Source: a bacterium (GTDB taxonomy: Bacteria; Patescibacteriota; Microgenomatia; UBA1406; GWC2-37-13). From it: DNA of 64,000 nucleotides. The translations under genes were made by a program, and so were the position numbers. Shown one piece after another: positions 28,887 to 36,749 of this stretch. The notes beneath the pieces were generated by a model. The model ran no database searches and was not told where the DNA came from. It worked only from the letters and a program-made list of their open reading frames with translations. The stretch spans positions 124,001 to 188,000 of the forward strand of contig JAKBEU010000001.1 of NCBI GenBank assembly GCA_021833625.1, written 5' to 3'. Numbering within the stretch: position 1 is the stretch's first letter; each line of letters begins with the position of its first letter.

Positions 28887-28892
<6 letters not shown>
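28851..28892 (+). promoter_or_regulatory. Leader hairpin and T-tract before 16S
   Basis: A GC-rich stem (GGTC/GACC, CCCC/GGGG, then A-T and GG/CC, with two bulges) spans 28851-28878 and is followed 6 nt later by eight T (28885-28892). It may be an attenuator overcome by boxA, or a processing structure; the gap before the T-tract makes termination uncertain. Confidence 0.45.
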
Positions 28893-30412
<1,520 letters not shown>

Positions 30413-30634: not shown

Positions 30635-31519
30635 TTATTTCAGGTCAAGTCCTTTGAGGAACTCTTTGAATTCGCCGTTCAGGTCTTTATGTTGAAGGGC
30701 AAATTCGACAACGGTTTTTAGGTATTCGAATTTATTTCCCGTGTCATAATACCGGCCGTTTTCTATGACAACCGTATACACAGGGACACCTTCATCTTTC
30801 AGAAGATTGATTGCGTCAACCAACCAAATCTCTCCGCCTTTTCCGGGCTTAATTCGTTTCAATGCGCTAAAAATTTGGGGAGGAAGAATATACCCTCCGT
30901 GTGTCGCAATATTTGAGGGAGCCTCATCAGGTGTCGGTTTTTCTACTATTCTTTTTATTTTGTGCACGTTGCCCTCGACATGCTCAAGCTCTGCAATTCC
31001 GTATCTGCTTAAATCTTCTTTCTTTTCTATTTTTACTCCCGAGATAACAATACCCCCATATTTCTCGTATACGTCAATCATTTGCTTTAATCGGGGAGGA
31101 GTAGAATAAATAAATTCATCACCCCACAACACCGCAAACGGTTCATCTTCAATGACCGGTTCTGCAGCAAGGATGGGTGTTCCGTTTCCATAAGGACCCT
31201 TCTGACGGATATAAATGAAGTTTGCCATATTGGCAATCTTCCGTATCCGTTCAAGAATATGCTCTTTATTTCCCGCCATGAGATTTTTGATAAGGTCTTC
31301 ATTGGGAACGTCAAAGTGATCTTCGATTGCGCGTTTATTTGCGCCCGTTACGATAATGACGTTTTCAATTCCGGAGTTTGCCGCTTCTTCGACGACATAT
31401 TGAATGACCGGCTTGTCAACAACGGGAAGCATTTCCTTAGGCATTGCCTTTGTCTGGGGAAGGAACCGTGTTCCAAATCCGGCAGCAGGAATAACGACTT
31501 TTGAAATCTTTTTTTTCAT
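30635..31519 (-). CDS. galU: UTP-glucose-1-phosphate uridylyltransferase
   Basis: 294 residues, the usual GalU length. It starts with V-V-I-P-A-A-G-F-G-T-R-F-L-P (nucleotide-binding loop) and T-K-A-M-P-K-E-M-L-P. Further family marks are the D-K-P-x-I-Q-Y-V-V-E-E segment, E-K-P near 195, and G-K-G-G-E-I-W-L-V-D-A. It makes UDP-glucose for surface glycans, fitting the DUF2723, YfhO and ligase-like genes nearby. It starts 5 nt after the upstream Big-1-like gene, so the two form an operon. Confidence 0.95.
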   Translation of the reverse strand: MKKKISKVVIPAAGFGTRFLPQTKAMPKEMLPVVDKPVIQYVVEEAANSGIENVIIVTGANKRAIEDHFDVPNEDLIKNLMAGNKEHILERIRKIANMANFIYIRQKGPYGNGTPILAAEPVIEDEPFAVLWGDEFIYSTPPRLKQMIDVYEKYGGIVISGVKIEKKEDLSRYGIAELEHVEGNVHKIKRIVEKPTPDEAPSNIATHGGYILPPQIFSALKRIKPGKGGEIWLVDAINLLKDEGVPVYTVVIENGRYYDTGNKFEYLKTVVEFALQHKDLNGEFKEFLKGLDLK

Positions 31520-31524
31520 AGAGT

Positions 31525-31938
31525 TTATTCAAACTTAACGGATAATTTTTGCGTAAGTTTTGTTATGCCGCCAACAAGCACCTCAATTGAGGCAACTCCC
31601 GTTTGCGTGGAGGTCAATTGAGTTGATGCTTTTCCTTGTTCATCTGTTGTCAATTCGGTGTCGCTAAGGGTTCCGAACGTCGTTGTGACGGTCACCTTTT
31701 GATTCTTGACAGGAATGCCTTTTGTGCTGCGGATAAACACATTCACTGAGCTTTTGGATACGCCGTCTGCCTTTACAAGGAGGGGGTAGGCAAAAAGAAG
31801 CGAGGACTCGGCCGAGGCTGTATAATCTTCTTTCGCACGGGTAAACTGTGCAATCGGTTTATTAAAAAAGACAATTGTCACAAACACAGAAAAAAGAAGG
31901 AAAAAAACGAGCATCAGGCCTCCCAACTTTTTATCCAT
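31525..31938 (-). CDS. Membrane-anchored protein with one Big-1-like Ig domain
   Basis: 137 residues. An N-terminal membrane anchor or uncleaved signal (~8-25) is followed by one bacterial Ig-like domain (~48-137) with the Big-1 pattern: L-V-K-A-D-G-V-S-K-S, then V-T-V-T-T-T-F-G-T-L-S and T-D-E-Q-G-K-A-S-T-Q-L-T-S. A single domain of this kind outside the membrane is probably structural or adhesive. It precedes galU by 5 nt. The exact function is not visible. Confidence 0.72.
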   Translation of the reverse strand: MDKKLGGLMLVFFLLFSVFVTIVFFNKPIAQFTRAKEDYTASAESSLLFAYPLLVKADGVSKSSVNVFIRSTKGIPVKNQKVTVTTTFGTLSDTELTTDEQGKASTQLTSTQTGVASIEVLVGGITKLTQKLSVKFE

Positions 31939-31976
31939 ATATGAAAATTATACCATGAACATTTATGAAACAAGCG

Positions 31977-31984
31977 TGTATAAT
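31977..31984 (+). promoter_or_regulatory. Candidate promoter upstream of the MgtE_N/CBS gene
   Basis: TGTATAAT (hexamer 31979-31984), about 83 nt before the ATG at 32068. A second AT-rich stretch (TATATAT) lies 20 nt before the ATG, so the true start is unclear. If the first is used, the leader is ~75 nt and could hold a control element. Confidence 0.35.
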
Positions 31985-32067
31985 GTGCGCACAAGATAGG
32001 TATGTATGTCTGATGTATAATTGATATATAGTTGTATTTGAGGCGATAAAAAGTATATATTGTTTTT

Positions 32068-33300
32068 ATGCTTTACTTTTCTGAGCTAGAAAACAAAAAA
32101 GTAGTAACCACTGACGGTATCATCATTGGAAGGCTTGATGACCTTATATTTCTTCTCAGTGGAAAACCAAGACTTACAAAACTTGTTGTCCATACTCAGA
32201 CGGGGACCCTCATCATCTCAACCGAAAGCCTTCAAAAATTTAATAAAGTCGTCCGCATCTCAAAATATTTCGTCCAAACCGACCTGGAAGAAAACGAACT
32301 CTACGTAAAAAGGAACCTGATGGACAAACAGATTATCGATATATCCGGAAACAAGATAGTCCGCGCAAATGACGTTATTCTCCAGGAACAAATTAACCTT
32401 GACTCAAGTTCGTATGAATGTTTTGTGTCCGGAGTCGACATTGGACCTTTAGGCATATTGAGAAGATTGCGCATCGAGAATCTTGTCTTAAAAACCCTCC
32501 GCTTGGTCGGAATAAGCATCGTATCCCAATTTCTCTCATGGGGAGATATTCAGCCTCTTGACCTTATGCGGGGCAGCATCACCGTACGGAAAGAGGAAGC
32601 AAAGCTGCAGAACATGCGGCCGGAAGACTTGGCGGATCATTTGGAGAAAACAAACGAACAGAATATTAAACGGTTCCTTAACCTGCTTGATAATGAATTT
32701 GCCGTTAAAGTTATCAGCAGCCTCAATTTGAATTATCAACGGGACCTTTTCAGGACCTGGAAACCGGAAAAATCAGTGGCAATTCTTGAAAAAATGGAGT
32801 CGGATACGGCGGTTGACATTCTTCTTTCACTTTCCAAAAAAAGGCGAATGGAACTTGTTCATATCATGGATCCTGCCCACAAACAAGCCATTCTCAACCT
32901 TCTTTCACTTACCAAGACACCCATAGGAGGACGCTTATCGTCCGAATTTTTCACCGCAAGTCCCACGGAAACGGTCCGCTCCGTCACAAAACGGATGAGA
33001 CACGAAACAGGAGAGTTTGTATTCCTTGCCACCGTATATGTCGTCAACCAAAAAAAACAACTGATAGGAGTTTTCAATCCTCATGAACTTATTTTGCAGG
33101 ACGAAGATACACCGGTATATAAATTTATGACCCAAAACATCGTTTCGGCCCAGTTAAAAACACCTCTTGAAGTTGTCGTAAAAAAAATATTAAAGTATCG
33201 CCTTCCGGGCATTCCGGTTCTCGATAACAATAAGCAAATTGTTGGTATTATTACTTTTGACGGCATTGCCGACCTCATCGAATCACAATTCAACAAATAA
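32068..33300 (+). CDS. PRC-barrel / MgtE N-domain / CBS-pair protein without membrane part
   Basis: 410 residues, soluble. PRC-barrel-like repeats occupy ~1-75 and ~80-155 (V-T-T-D-G-x-x-I-G-R-L-D-D is typical). A MgtE intracellular N domain follows (~165-275; note M-R-P-E-D-L-A-D-H-L-E), then a CBS pair (~285-405) ending I-P-V-L-D-N-N-K-Q-I-V-G-I-I-T. In MgtE the N and CBS domains sense Mg2+ and gate the channel; here the channel domain is missing and an Nramp-like transporter begins 6 nt downstream. I infer a detached sensor or gate for that transporter. Confidence 0.85.
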   Translation: MLYFSELENKKVVTTDGIIIGRLDDLIFLLSGKPRLTKLVVHTQTGTLIISTESLQKFNKVVRISKYFVQTDLEENELYVKRNLMDKQIIDISGNKIVRANDVILQEQINLDSSSYECFVSGVDIGPLGILRRLRIENLVLKTLRLVGISIVSQFLSWGDIQPLDLMRGSITVRKEEAKLQNMRPEDLADHLEKTNEQNIKRFLNLLDNEFAVKVISSLNLNYQRDLFRTWKPEKSVAILEKMESDTAVDILLSLSKKRRMELVHIMDPAHKQAILNLLSLTKTPIGGRLSSEFFTASPTETVRSVTKRMRHETGEFVFLATVYVVNQKKQLIGVFNPHELILQDEDTPVYKFMTQNIVSAQLKTPLEVVVKKILKYRLPGIPVLDNNKQIVGIITFDGIADLIESQFNK

Positions 33301-33306
33301 ACGTTT

Positions 33307-34548
33307 ATGAAGATGCCCAAATTCATTAAGAGAGTCTTTCTTCTCCTTGCCATTATGGGTCCCGGCCTTGTTACGGCCTTTGCCGATAATGATGCGGGAG
33401 GCGTTGCGACCTATTCCGTTGCAGCTTCAAAATTCGGCTATCAAATACTCATTACTCTTATTCCGATCACGCTTGTTTTGTTTATTACGCAGGAAATCGG
33501 TGTACGCATCGCCCTTGCCTCGGGAAAAGGACTTGCGGATCTTATCAGGGAAAGATATGGCGTGTTTATTTCACTTATTATTTTTATTCTTGTATTTATT
33601 GTCAACTTCGGCGTTGTCCTGCAGGATATCAGCGGACTTAAATCAGCCCTTCAACTGTTCGGATTAAATTACAACATATATCTGCCTCTCCTTCTTGGTC
33701 TTCTTTTTATTTTTCTTGTAAAATCCACATACAAAAAAACAGAGCGGCTTTTTTTTCTCCTCATATTGTTTTACTTAAGTTATTTTTTCTCCGCCATTTT
33801 GGTGAAGCCTGACTGGGGATTTATTGCAAAATCAATTGTCATTCCTCAGGGAAAAATGTCCTTTAATTTCATCTATACTTCAGTGGCAGTACTTGGAACA
33901 ACGGTTACCGCGTGGGGTCAGTTTGTTATTGCAAGCAGTATAAAAGACAAGCGGTTAACGGCAAGCGATATGAAGGTCGAACAATTTGAAGTGTTTGCGG
34001 CTTCCATAATAAGCAATGTCTTTACCATGTTCATGATGGTTGCCGTTGCGGCAACTATTTTTCATAATGGTCTTCACATAGGAGACGCGGCTGAAGCAGC
34101 TGTTGCAATCAAGCCGCTTGCAGGGGACATGGCCGGAATATTGTTTGGAATCGGACTGCTTGTTGCAGGATTTTTGGGATGCGCTATTGTTCCCCTCTCT
34201 ACAGCATATGCATTTTCCGAACTGTTCGGATATGAAGGAAGTCTTAATCAGGGTCTTCAGAAAAGTAAATTTTTTTATGGGTTTTTTGTGTTTCAGATAG
34301 TGTTGGCCGCGATATTTGTCATGCAACCGAAATTCTCACTCTTTAGTTTTACCCTGTACGCTGACTTTTTAAACAGCGTTATTCTTCCCGTCATATTTAT
34401 TTTTCTCTATCGATTTGCCAACAATAAAGATATAATGGGTAAGTATAAAAATACGAGAATGCAAAATTTTATACTGATTACCTGCGGCGTTATTATTTCC
34501 TGTGCCGTTGTGTTAGGACTTTTAGGGGGAGCATTACATTTAAAATAA
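33307..34548 (+). CDS. Atypical Nramp-family divalent metal transporter
   Basis: 413 residues with 11 predicted membrane spans and the Nramp start M-G-P-G-L-V-T-A. The TM1 metal motif DPGN is DAGG (29-32): the Asp is kept and the Asn lost. The TM6 MPH motif reads T-A-W (201-203), so the Met that favours transition metals and the His are both missing. Such changes are known in Nramp-related Mg2+ transporters (NRMT). With the MgtE-type sensor next door, Mg2+ is a reasonable substrate guess; Mn2+ or another ion cannot be excluded. Confidence 0.85.
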   Translation: MKMPKFIKRVFLLLAIMGPGLVTAFADNDAGGVATYSVAASKFGYQILITLIPITLVLFITQEIGVRIALASGKGLADLIRERYGVFISLIIFILVFIVNFGVVLQDISGLKSALQLFGLNYNIYLPLLLGLLFIFLVKSTYKKTERLFFLLILFYLSYFFSAILVKPDWGFIAKSIVIPQGKMSFNFIYTSVAVLGTTVTAWGQFVIASSIKDKRLTASDMKVEQFEVFAASIISNVFTMFMMVAVAATIFHNGLHIGDAAEAAVAIKPLAGDMAGILFGIGLLVAGFLGCAIVPLSTAYAFSELFGYEGSLNQGLQKSKFFYGFFVFQIVLAAIFVMQPKFSLFSFTLYADFLNSVILPVIFIFLYRFANNKDIMGKYKNTRMQNFILITCGVIISCAVVLGLLGGALHLK

Positions 34549-34551
34549 ATT

Positions 34552-35373
34552 ATGAAAAAACTTATCGTGGTTGCGGATTGGGCCCTTGATTCATTAACAT
34601 GTCAGGAATTTAAAACAGCGCTCCAAGGCTTTTCAAAAAATGCAAAGGATGTTGATGTTTCATTTGTTTCCTCCTCTCCCTCAACACTCCATACCTCCTA
34701 TATCCTTGAACAGCTTATCCGCACTGAAGAACGGTATGGAATCCCCAATGAAACGGTCATTTTTCAAAACACCGACCCCCGTATCCAAACAAAAGAAGGT
34801 GTCAAACAGGCAAAGGGTGCTGAATTTATCGTAATTCGACTTAAGTCCGGTATATTTCTTTGCGGACCAAACGCAGGGTATGATTTCTCCCTCCTTAAAA
34901 ACAAAATTGAATATGTGTACGGTTATCCGGGTCTTGACCGCGGAAGCCAATTCCGCTCACGCGACCTTTATTCTAGGGTAAGCGCACACCTTATGGATGG
35001 TCTTGAGGATGAGATGGAACTGGAGGAAGAAACGTCAAACTGCATTCCTGAATTGCGGGGATATTTTATCGGACACATCGATAACTACGGGAACATTAAA
35101 ACGACAATAACGAAAGAGGATTTTAAGGGAAAATATGAACTGAATGATACGGTCACAATAACCCTCAATCACGTGACAAAAAAGGCGACATATGTAAGCA
35201 ATCTGTTTGGCGGCACTCCAGGACAACTGGTTATTTATCCGGGATCATCGGGAGACAATGATAATCCCTATCTTGAAATTTCTATTTGGAGACATTTCAC
35301 GGAAGAAAATCCCACAACCGGACTTGCAGAGTTCAATCACCCAAAGCCCGGAATGCAAATAGAGTTAAAGTGA
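34552..35373 (+). CDS. SAM hydrolase-like (SAM hydroxide adenosyltransferase/DUF62) protein
   Basis: 273 residues. The N-terminal domain has I-V-V-A-D-W-A-L-D-S, and an L-C-G-P-N-A-G-Y-D-F-S segment stands where the family has A-P-D-N-G-L-L-S. The C-terminal domain carries G-Y-F-I-G-H-I-D-N-Y-G-N-I-K-T-T-I, close to the family's I-D-x-F-G-N-x-x-T-N-I. The family hydrolyses SAM to adenosine and methionine. Divergence at the Asp motifs makes the reaction uncertain. The stop overlaps convergent nadE by 9 nt. A SAM riboswitch lies 1.4 kb away. Confidence 0.6.
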   Translation: MKKLIVVADWALDSLTCQEFKTALQGFSKNAKDVDVSFVSSSPSTLHTSYILEQLIRTEERYGIPNETVIFQNTDPRIQTKEGVKQAKGAEFIVIRLKSGIFLCGPNAGYDFSLLKNKIEYVYGYPGLDRGSQFRSRDLYSRVSAHLMDGLEDEMELEEETSNCIPELRGYFIGHIDNYGNIKTTITKEDFKGKYELNDTVTITLNHVTKKATYVSNLFGGTPGQLVIYPGSSGDNDNPYLEISIWRHFTEENPTTGLAEFNHPKPGMQIELK

Positions 35374-36117
35374 GTAGGGGACTTCGTGCTTGAATGCATT
35401 TCTTTTGACAAGCGCTATTATTTTTTCCGCGTTTTTAAATCCCGTCTGCTCAATTTCTTTTATTGACATTTTCTGTTCAAAATAACGAAACAGTATTTCA
35501 TCTGCCTCTGCATAAGTAAACCCGAACTCTCCTTCATCCGTTTGCCCCTCCCATAGTTCCGCGGAAGGACTTCTTCTGATAAACGTTTTCGGAACCCCAA
35601 GTTCATTCGCAAGCGCGTAAACCTGCGCTTTATATAAATGTCTAATAGGCTCGATGTCGGATGCCGCGTCCCCAAAACGGGTAAAGTACCCCAACAATTC
35701 TTCCGTTTTGTTTTCCGTACCGCAGACCAGTGCGTCCAGTTTTTTTGCACAGTCATATATCACAATCATGCGCATGCGGGCCATTACGTTTCCCAAGCGG
35801 ATAGGATCCTCAACATTAAGATTTGCTTTTGTCGTTTCTACCATGTGGCGGATGGAAACGGTATGAAATTGGGAAGGAGAAATAGTGAGCATTTCTGCTA
35901 TGTCGGCAAATTCTTCTTCATGTGAAGTTTCAAAGGGGAGGTGGAGAACGGTAATATTCTTAATGGGAAGTGCTTTTGCCAGGAGGAACAGGCTTGTTGT
36001 CGAATCAATACCGCCGGACCATGCAAGCACCGCGTTTTTTTTACCTGTTTTTTCAAATGTTTTTTTAAGAAATTCAGCGATCGAGGTTATTTCCTGTTTT
36101 AAATTAATAGTGTACAT
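35365..36117 (-). CDS. nadE: NH3-dependent NAD+ synthetase
   Basis: 250 residues without a glutaminase domain, so ammonia-dependent. The PP-loop W-S-G-G-I-D-S-T-T (~33-41) binds ATP; C-G-T-E-N-K-T-E (~132-139) and the later F-G-D-A-A-S-D-I-E-P-I segment are typical NadE substrate-site motifs. It makes NAD+ from nicotinate adenine dinucleotide. It follows nadD after 8 nt, giving the last two steps of NAD synthesis in one operon. Confidence 0.94.
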   Translation of the reverse strand: MYTINLKQEITSIAEFLKKTFEKTGKKNAVLAWSGGIDSTTSLFLLAKALPIKNITVLHLPFETSHEEEFADIAEMLTISPSQFHTVSIRHMVETTKANLNVEDPIRLGNVMARMRMIVIYDCAKKLDALVCGTENKTEELLGYFTRFGDAASDIEPIRHLYKAQVYALANELGVPKTFIRRSPSAELWEGQTDEGEFGFTYAEADEILFRYFEQKMSIKEIEQTGFKNAEKIIALVKRNAFKHEVPYSL

Positions 36118-36125
36118 AAATAAGA

Positions 36126-36743
36126 TTATTGCAAATAAAGTTTCTTTTTTTTGATGTAGTTTCCGATTTTTTCTCCCACTAACGGTTCAATGGGCAAGCC
36201 CATTTTGACGCGCTTACGGATGTGGGTCGAAGAAACGGTGCTGACGATAAGATCCCCACTCAGGACGGTGATATTTTTAGGAATACGTTTAAGTCCAAAC
36301 GATGTGAGCACTCTTTTTTTTAATGTCTGAAAGTCCGTATCACGGGGAAAAATAATAAGGTTGTGTTCTCTCACAAGAGTCTCCCATTCGTTCCACAACC
36401 TGAAAGTGGGAAGAGCGTCAGAGCCTAATATCCAATAAAATTCATTACCGGGATATGTTTTTTTTAGGAGCCTCAATGTATCAATTGTCCGGCTTTTTTT
36501 ATTATGCTTTTCTTCAAATGAGGAAACAATAAGGGAACCGTTTTCAAATTGGGACGCCATTTCAAAGCGTTCTTTGTATGAAGTGATTCGTTCCAGTTTG
36601 TCGGGAAATTCAGGAAAATACGAATAACACACCATAAGCCATACTTCATCCATCTTTAGCTGTTCTTTCACCTGTTGTGCAACCAAATAATGCCCTACAT
36701 GAATAGGGTCAAACGCTCCCCCAAGAATGGCGATTTTCTTCAT
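36126..36743 (-). CDS. nadD: Nicotinate-nucleotide adenylyltransferase
   Basis: 205 residues. It has the nucleotidyltransferase signature G-G-A-F-D-P-I-H-V-G-H near the start (the HxGH motif) and the C-terminal S-T-V-S-S-T-H-I-R-K-R motif. The W-I-L-G-S-D-A-L-P segment is typical of NadD. It adenylates nicotinate mononucleotide. I chose the ATG at 36743, 6 nt from a -10 box; a TTG one codon upstream is less likely. Confidence 0.94.
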   Translation of the reverse strand: MKKIAILGGAFDPIHVGHYLVAQQVKEQLKMDEVWLMVCYSYFPEFPDKLERITSYKERFEMASQFENGSLIVSSFEEKHNKKSRTIDTLRLLKKTYPGNEFYWILGSDALPTFRLWNEWETLVREHNLIIFPRDTDFQTLKKRVLTSFGLKRIPKNITVLSGDLIVSTVSSTHIRKRVKMGLPIEPLVGEKIGNYIKKKKLYLQ

Positions 36744-36749
36744 CAAGTT

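Follow-up and report, generated by a model that had tools for sequence, protein, structure and literature searches.

Introduction

Why should the cytosolic gate of a Mg2+ channel be encoded, without its channel, directly before a transporter of a different fold? This question is raised by two neighboring genes in a stretch of 64,000 nucleotides from the genome of a tiny, uncultured member of the Patescibacteria (the window; all positions are those of this whole stretch). The initial annotation, made from the letters alone, had read them as a two-protein Mg2+ uptake system in which an MgtE sensor is combined with another transport fold. That reading proves right in outline and the sensor is indeed tied to an Nramp-fold protein, but the idea is not new, because Shin and colleagues, who defined NrmT in 2014, reported that most nrmT genes have a gene for an MgtE-N-domain protein next to them, and suggested regulation by feedback (PMC4072509). 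The role of the MgtE-like gene was left open there (PMC4072509). Here, we ask whether this gene belongs functionally with the transporter, which metal is carried, and whether the two genes share one history.

A detached MgtE module and an NRMT-type transporter

The two open reading frames lie where the initial annotation had placed them, both on the + strand, with 6 nt between the stop of the first and the start of the second. The features of the locus are as follows:

32068..33300, + strand: detached MgtE-type sensor gene, 410 aa (open reading frame and Pfam), with PRC barrel, MgtE_N and CBS pair and without the transmembrane part
32071..32163, + strand: PRC-barrel match in the sensor, residues 2-32 (PF05239, E 2e-5)
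32614..32907, + strand: MgtE_N domain in the sensor, residues 183-280 (E 1.6e-17)
33118..33279, + strand: second CBS domain in the sensor, residues 351-404 (Pfam), with no plug helix after it
33307..34548, + strand: NRMT-type transporter gene, Nramp/SLC11 fold, 413 aa (PF01566, E 2.3e-74)
33391..33402, + strand: TM1 substrate-site motif DAGG in place of DPGN, residues 29-32
33898..33915, + strand: TM6 substrate-site motif T198-T-V-T201-A-W203 (TxxT; MPH replaced by TAW, residues 201-203)
34363..34365, + strand: TM10 Asp353 at the position of EleNRMT Gln379 (alignment, tree)
34552..35373, + strand: third gene of a probable operon, SAM hydroxide adenosyltransferase-like, 273 aa (PF20257, E 5e-7), 3 nt after the transporter

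The domain makeup that had been read for the first protein holds: Pfam and the alignment place its C-terminus directly after the CBS pair, so that both the MgtE channel and the plug helix are missing, and the transmembrane domain PF01769 was not found anywhere in the window's own genome. Against the cytosolic domain of TtMgtE (2YVY), a profile of 60 sensor homologues matches with E 2e-58 over profile positions 173-403; the N domain and the CBS pair thus align over 230 residues with the MgtE cytosolic part (TtMgtE 2YVY, E. faecalis 2OUX), from which the sensor differs, besides the lost channel and plug helix, by some 180 additional N-terminal residues, among them the PRC barrel. All 60 homologues have MgtE_N and CBS, and 59 of the 60 have PRC. 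A literature search on PRC barrels and on Patescibacteria, mostly outside subscription journals, found no paper.

In TtMgtE, Mg2+ is bound at Mg4 (D91/D247), Mg5 (D226/D250), Mg6 (D95) and Mg7 (E59) (PMC5882242). Of these six acidic ligands, the window's sensor keeps the equivalents of D91 and D95 (its own D246 and D250) and that of TtMgtE D250, and lacks those of E59, D226 and D247, with K214 at the E59 position and G399 at the D247 position, where at least 90% of the homologues have Asp. Among 34 sensors, 32 have an acidic residue at the D91 position and 27 at that of E59, Asp is found at the D95 position in all 34 and at that of D247 in 28, while the D226 position is mostly Lys or Arg; across the 60 homologues, the D95 position is invariant and those of D91 and D247 are at least 90% conserved. 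The residues that gate MgtE, D91, D95 and D247 (roles from PMC5882242), therefore rank among the best conserved of the family, which by its sequence looks fit for Mg2+ sensing. Judged on the same positions, the window's own copy is atypical within its family: K214 and G399 in place of E59 and D247, together with the D226 position, which most family members fill with a basic residue, leave the sites Mg4, Mg5 and Mg7 incomplete in it. This copy is without two of the MgtE Mg2+ ligands that most relatives keep. A relative from the same genus has Asn at position 399, and between these two genomes the sensors are 62% and the transporters 85% identical.

The second protein has the Nramp fold; as had been noticed, DAGG stands at its DPGN position and TAW at its MPH position. 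Its closest solved relative is EleNRMT (7QIA; E 4e-74, 253.7 bits; 32% identity), the next Nramp scoring about one third of that (E 5e-22, 82.2 bits), and its closeness to NRMTs rests on these match scores, the outgroup of the transporter tree being three DPSG/DPAG-type Nramp relatives. The published signature of NRMTs is DxxG-TxxA/T (PMC8806188), and its T version is found here as D29-A-G-G32 (in DNDAGG, residues 27-32) and T198-T-V-T201 (in GTTVTAW, residues 197-203). On these sequence features, the protein is a member of NRMT/NrmT, the Nramp-related Mg2+ transporters. With the known members (C. acetobutylicum Ca_c0685 and Ca_c3329, EleNRMT), it shares the fold, the DxxG-TxxA/T site, Trp for the TM6 His and a neighboring MgtE-N-domain gene; with canonical Nramps (MntH; DraNramp, ScaDMT), it shares the fold and the TM1 Asp but has DPGN, MPH and the TM10 Gln all replaced. 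It differs from EleNRMT in having Thr at the Ala227 position and in TM10: Gln379, which is conserved in characterized NRMTs though outside the published signature, is Asp353 in the window and Asp, Asn or Ser across its clade. Roughly half of the transporters, the window's among them, combine this loss with Ala, Leu, Ile or Gly for the TM6 Pro after the Thr; the remaining ones have both Pro and Gln, with one Ser-Gln exception. The non-Gln transporters form one clade on the transporter tree (support 100/100). Because mutation of Gln379 strongly compromises transport by EleNRMT (PMC8806188), the replacement likely matters. Five related loci (L064, L065, L066, L067, L068) encode an Nramp-like protein of a further kind, whose metal site reads DPSG/DPAG and TISPY; it is neither a canonical Nramp nor an NRMT of the window's type.

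Linkage and co-retention of the two genes

Named relatives are mostly from Candidatus Roizmanbacteria, other Patescibacteria and Chloroflexota (Anaerolineae). Of the 74 related loci whose sequence reaches far enough upstream, 62 have the sensor gene upstream on the same strand, and in 18 of these 62 adjacent pairs the stop and start overlap by 4 nt; this pairing is far above chance. No natural fusion of sensor and transporter occurs among 80 loci examined; long open frames considered as such were rejected, being stop-to-stop overlaps, none of which contained both proteins. Scans for promoters and terminators at the locus gave background levels. In 17/76 loci, the next gene after the transporter is the SAM hydroxide adenosyltransferase-like one.

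The co-occurrence on which the initial annotation had staked its reading is borne out. Among 57 relatives, 33 of the 34 genomes that encode the transporter also have a detached sensor, whereas the 23 that lack the transporter have none, their MgtE_N matches being parts of MgtE genes. In an order-level sample of 64 genomes at least 85% complete, the sensor is present in 44 of the 46 genomes with the transporter but in only 2 of the 18 others (p 4e-11), and both of the latter are drafts of one genus, g21. In this genus, the sensor and transporter genes are unlinked in every one of the 12 genomes with both; since the sensor is kept with the transporter there all the same, linkage alone is insufficient to explain the co-retention. 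Genomes with only CorA have no detached sensor.

Evidence on the transported metal

The expectation that loss of the Met and Asn ligands means Mg2+ transport holds up in part. Ligand loss alone is no proof, as shown by Acidobacterium capsulatum NrmT: It too has an MgtE-like neighbor, yet it behaved as a Mn2+ transporter, rescuing a Mn2+ defect fully, whereas rescue of a Mg2+ defect required low-millimolar Mg2+, and co-expression of the neighbor brought no improvement (PMC4072509). Mg2+ is nevertheless probable on other grounds. Transmembrane domains of CorA or MgtE occur in 1 of the 46 transporter-bearing genomes of the order versus 12 of the 18 others (Fisher 6.6e-8; 2.6e-5 at the genus level, a count added because kinship of genomes inflates per-genome statistics). 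Within the order, the transporter and CorA/MgtE hardly ever occur together, an exclusion that is new support for Mg2+. In addition, the Mg2+-responsive M-box riboswitch, which accompanies a subset of NRMT members, lies upstream at eight of the examined Chloroflexota loci (L133, L135, L137, L139, L149, L151, L152, L154), preceding the sensor-transporter pair at seven and directly preceding the transporter at L149, where no sensor was found. The window differs from these relatives in having no M-box at either gathering or relaxed thresholds. Taken together, the gene distribution and the riboswitches speak indirectly for Mg2+ as the substrate and make it quite probable.

The pair was also considered as the sole Mg2+ importer of the organism, and this was rejected: Besides the pair, the window's own genome encodes an MgtA-type ATPase (1154 bits) and one CNNM, which leaves the pair as one Mg2+ system among others. 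CNNM (CorC-type) genes are almost confined, among the 57 relatives, to genomes with an NRMT-type transporter, unlike the pattern of CorA/MgtE, which hints at a functional link with the NRMT uptake system. At another locus of the same genome (L063, 4862-8802), a second, degenerate Nramp homologue with DNTD and an FPFW-like motif for DPGN/MPH lies directly before the MgtA-type ATPase gene; this neighbor was not found at six other MgtA loci.

Probable exchange of the transporter beside the sensor

The trees of the two proteins conflict strongly. The window's sensor groups with those of L124 and L117 (support 99/94), whose loci are syntenic with the window (identities to L124: galU 89%, SAM hydrolase-like gene 69%, nadE-like gene 54%), yet the transporters of these two loci belong to another subclade than the window's and are 45% identical to it. 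L082 and L122 likewise have sister sensors, 64% identical (support 100/100), and downstream genes that are 72% identical, while their transporters belong to different subclades and are 49% identical. The well-supported branches of the sensor tree require at least 4 changes of partner type. A single clade of sensors with non-Gln transporters is rejected by the sensor data (p-AU 6e-5), and the sensor groupings are rejected by the transporter data (p-AU 2e-105 and 4e-56), where the non-Gln transporters are one clade; because the tested groups were picked after the trees had been seen, these p-AU values are indicative only, and the identities and the synteny carry the case.

The simplest reading of these sequences is that in Roizmanbacteria the transporter gene alone was replaced in place, several times, between the sensor and conserved flanking genes (compared with window positions 30635-36746); differential loss from tandem paralogues may be an alternative, though a less simple one. 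With the transporter alone replaced between conserved neighbors, the histories of sensor and transporter differ. The SAM hydroxide adenosyltransferase-like gene has the history of the locus, not that of the transporter. In-place exchange while the sensor stays was unexpected, unlike the pairing itself, which has been known since 2014.

We considered, at about even chances, that the MgtE module is an exchangeable subunit: One conserved Mg2+ sensor acting in trans would serve NRMTs of two subclades, the transporter alone being replaced between the sensor and the downstream gene, and the window's subclade would bring a remodeled site (TM10 Gln to Asp/Asn, TM6 Pro lost).

Discussion

Based on these findings, we propose a mechanism for the two proteins. 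The 33307 protein would import Mg2+, probably still largely hydrated, through an Nramp-type site that may be widened by the changes of Met to Thr and Asn to Gly. Uptake would run down the electrochemical gradient, and probably without proton coupling since the TM6 His is Trp. The 32068 protein would be the MgtE cytosolic gate module working in trans: At high cytosolic Mg2+ (and ATP), Mg2+ may bridge its N and CBS domains, and the resulting compact dimer would contact the inner face of the transporter and slow transport. We consider it likely that the sensor acts on this transporter, and a little less firmly we favor the whole scheme of Mg2+ import by an NRMT that is slowed in trans at high cytosolic Mg2+. 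What was computed is the domains, the NRMT membership, the linkage, the co-retention, the CorA/MgtE exclusion and the riboswitches in relatives; from these we infer the Mg2+ substrate in this species, the uncoupled transport, the direct contact and the inhibition. Several points speak against the scheme: the incomplete Mg4, Mg5 and Mg7 sites of this sensor copy, the MgtA pump as another importer, the lack of an M-box in the window and the A. capsulatum results. Two more bear on the contact. The plug helix, which carries closure in MgtE, is missing from the sensor, and repeated exchange of the transporter next to a sensor that stayed does not point to a finely co-adapted interface.

The last two points lend some weight to a rather improbable alternative, that the sensor acts freely as a Mg2+/ATP-responsive regulator on some other target, does no physical gating, and is inherited along with the transporter through shared Mg2+ homeostasis. 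The strong tree conflict with transporters exchanged at fixed loci, the unlinked genes of genus g21 and the missing plug helix would all agree with it, as would the C. acetobutylicum NrmT proteins, which transport without needing a sensor (PMC4072509). However, the detached sensor is almost absent where CorA or full MgtE is used instead, so that it goes with this kind of transporter rather than with Mg2+ as such, and the 4-nt gene overlaps also speak for a partnership. It is unlikely, in turn, that the sensor is losing its Mg2+-sensing role in the window's lineage and that the MgtA pump has taken over regulated uptake. K214 and G399, the Asn of the same-genus copy, the lower identity of the sensors than of the transporters within the genus and the strong MgtA match would fit such a decay, but the reading frame is intact, D246 and D250 are kept, and so is the operon order; faster change of the sensor could also mean that the genus acquired the transporter only recently.

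A further alternative concerns the metal, namely that the transporter chiefly imports Mn2+, or divalent metals in general, and that the MgtE-like protein responds to Mn2+ or is a metal chaperone. The A. capsulatum rescue experiments described above support it, EleNRMT also carries Mn2+ (PMC8806188), and only one other Nramp, without metal-site motifs, is present in the window's own genome. We regard it as decidedly unlikely, since the mutual exclusion with CorA/MgtE and the M-box on related operons point to Mg2+, and the Met ligand that favors transition metals is absent.

Returning to Mg2+ import by an NRMT under a sensor in trans, the role of the MgtE-like gene has now become testable through its co-retention when unlinked, its near absence where CorA/MgtE is present and the naturally swapped pairs. 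If the sensor gates in trans, a channel's gate module has found a second use on an unrelated transport fold, and the swapped pairs would reveal which surfaces matter. The model also predicts the route of Mg2+ acquisition in many Patescibacteria that have neither CorA nor MgtE.

Of additional note, a lone 16S rRNA gene lies at window positions 28887-30411, with no 23S rRNA gene within the 64-kb window, and the sensor-transporter pair is found within a few kb of a 16S gene in the relatives L075, L110, L112 and L121 too.
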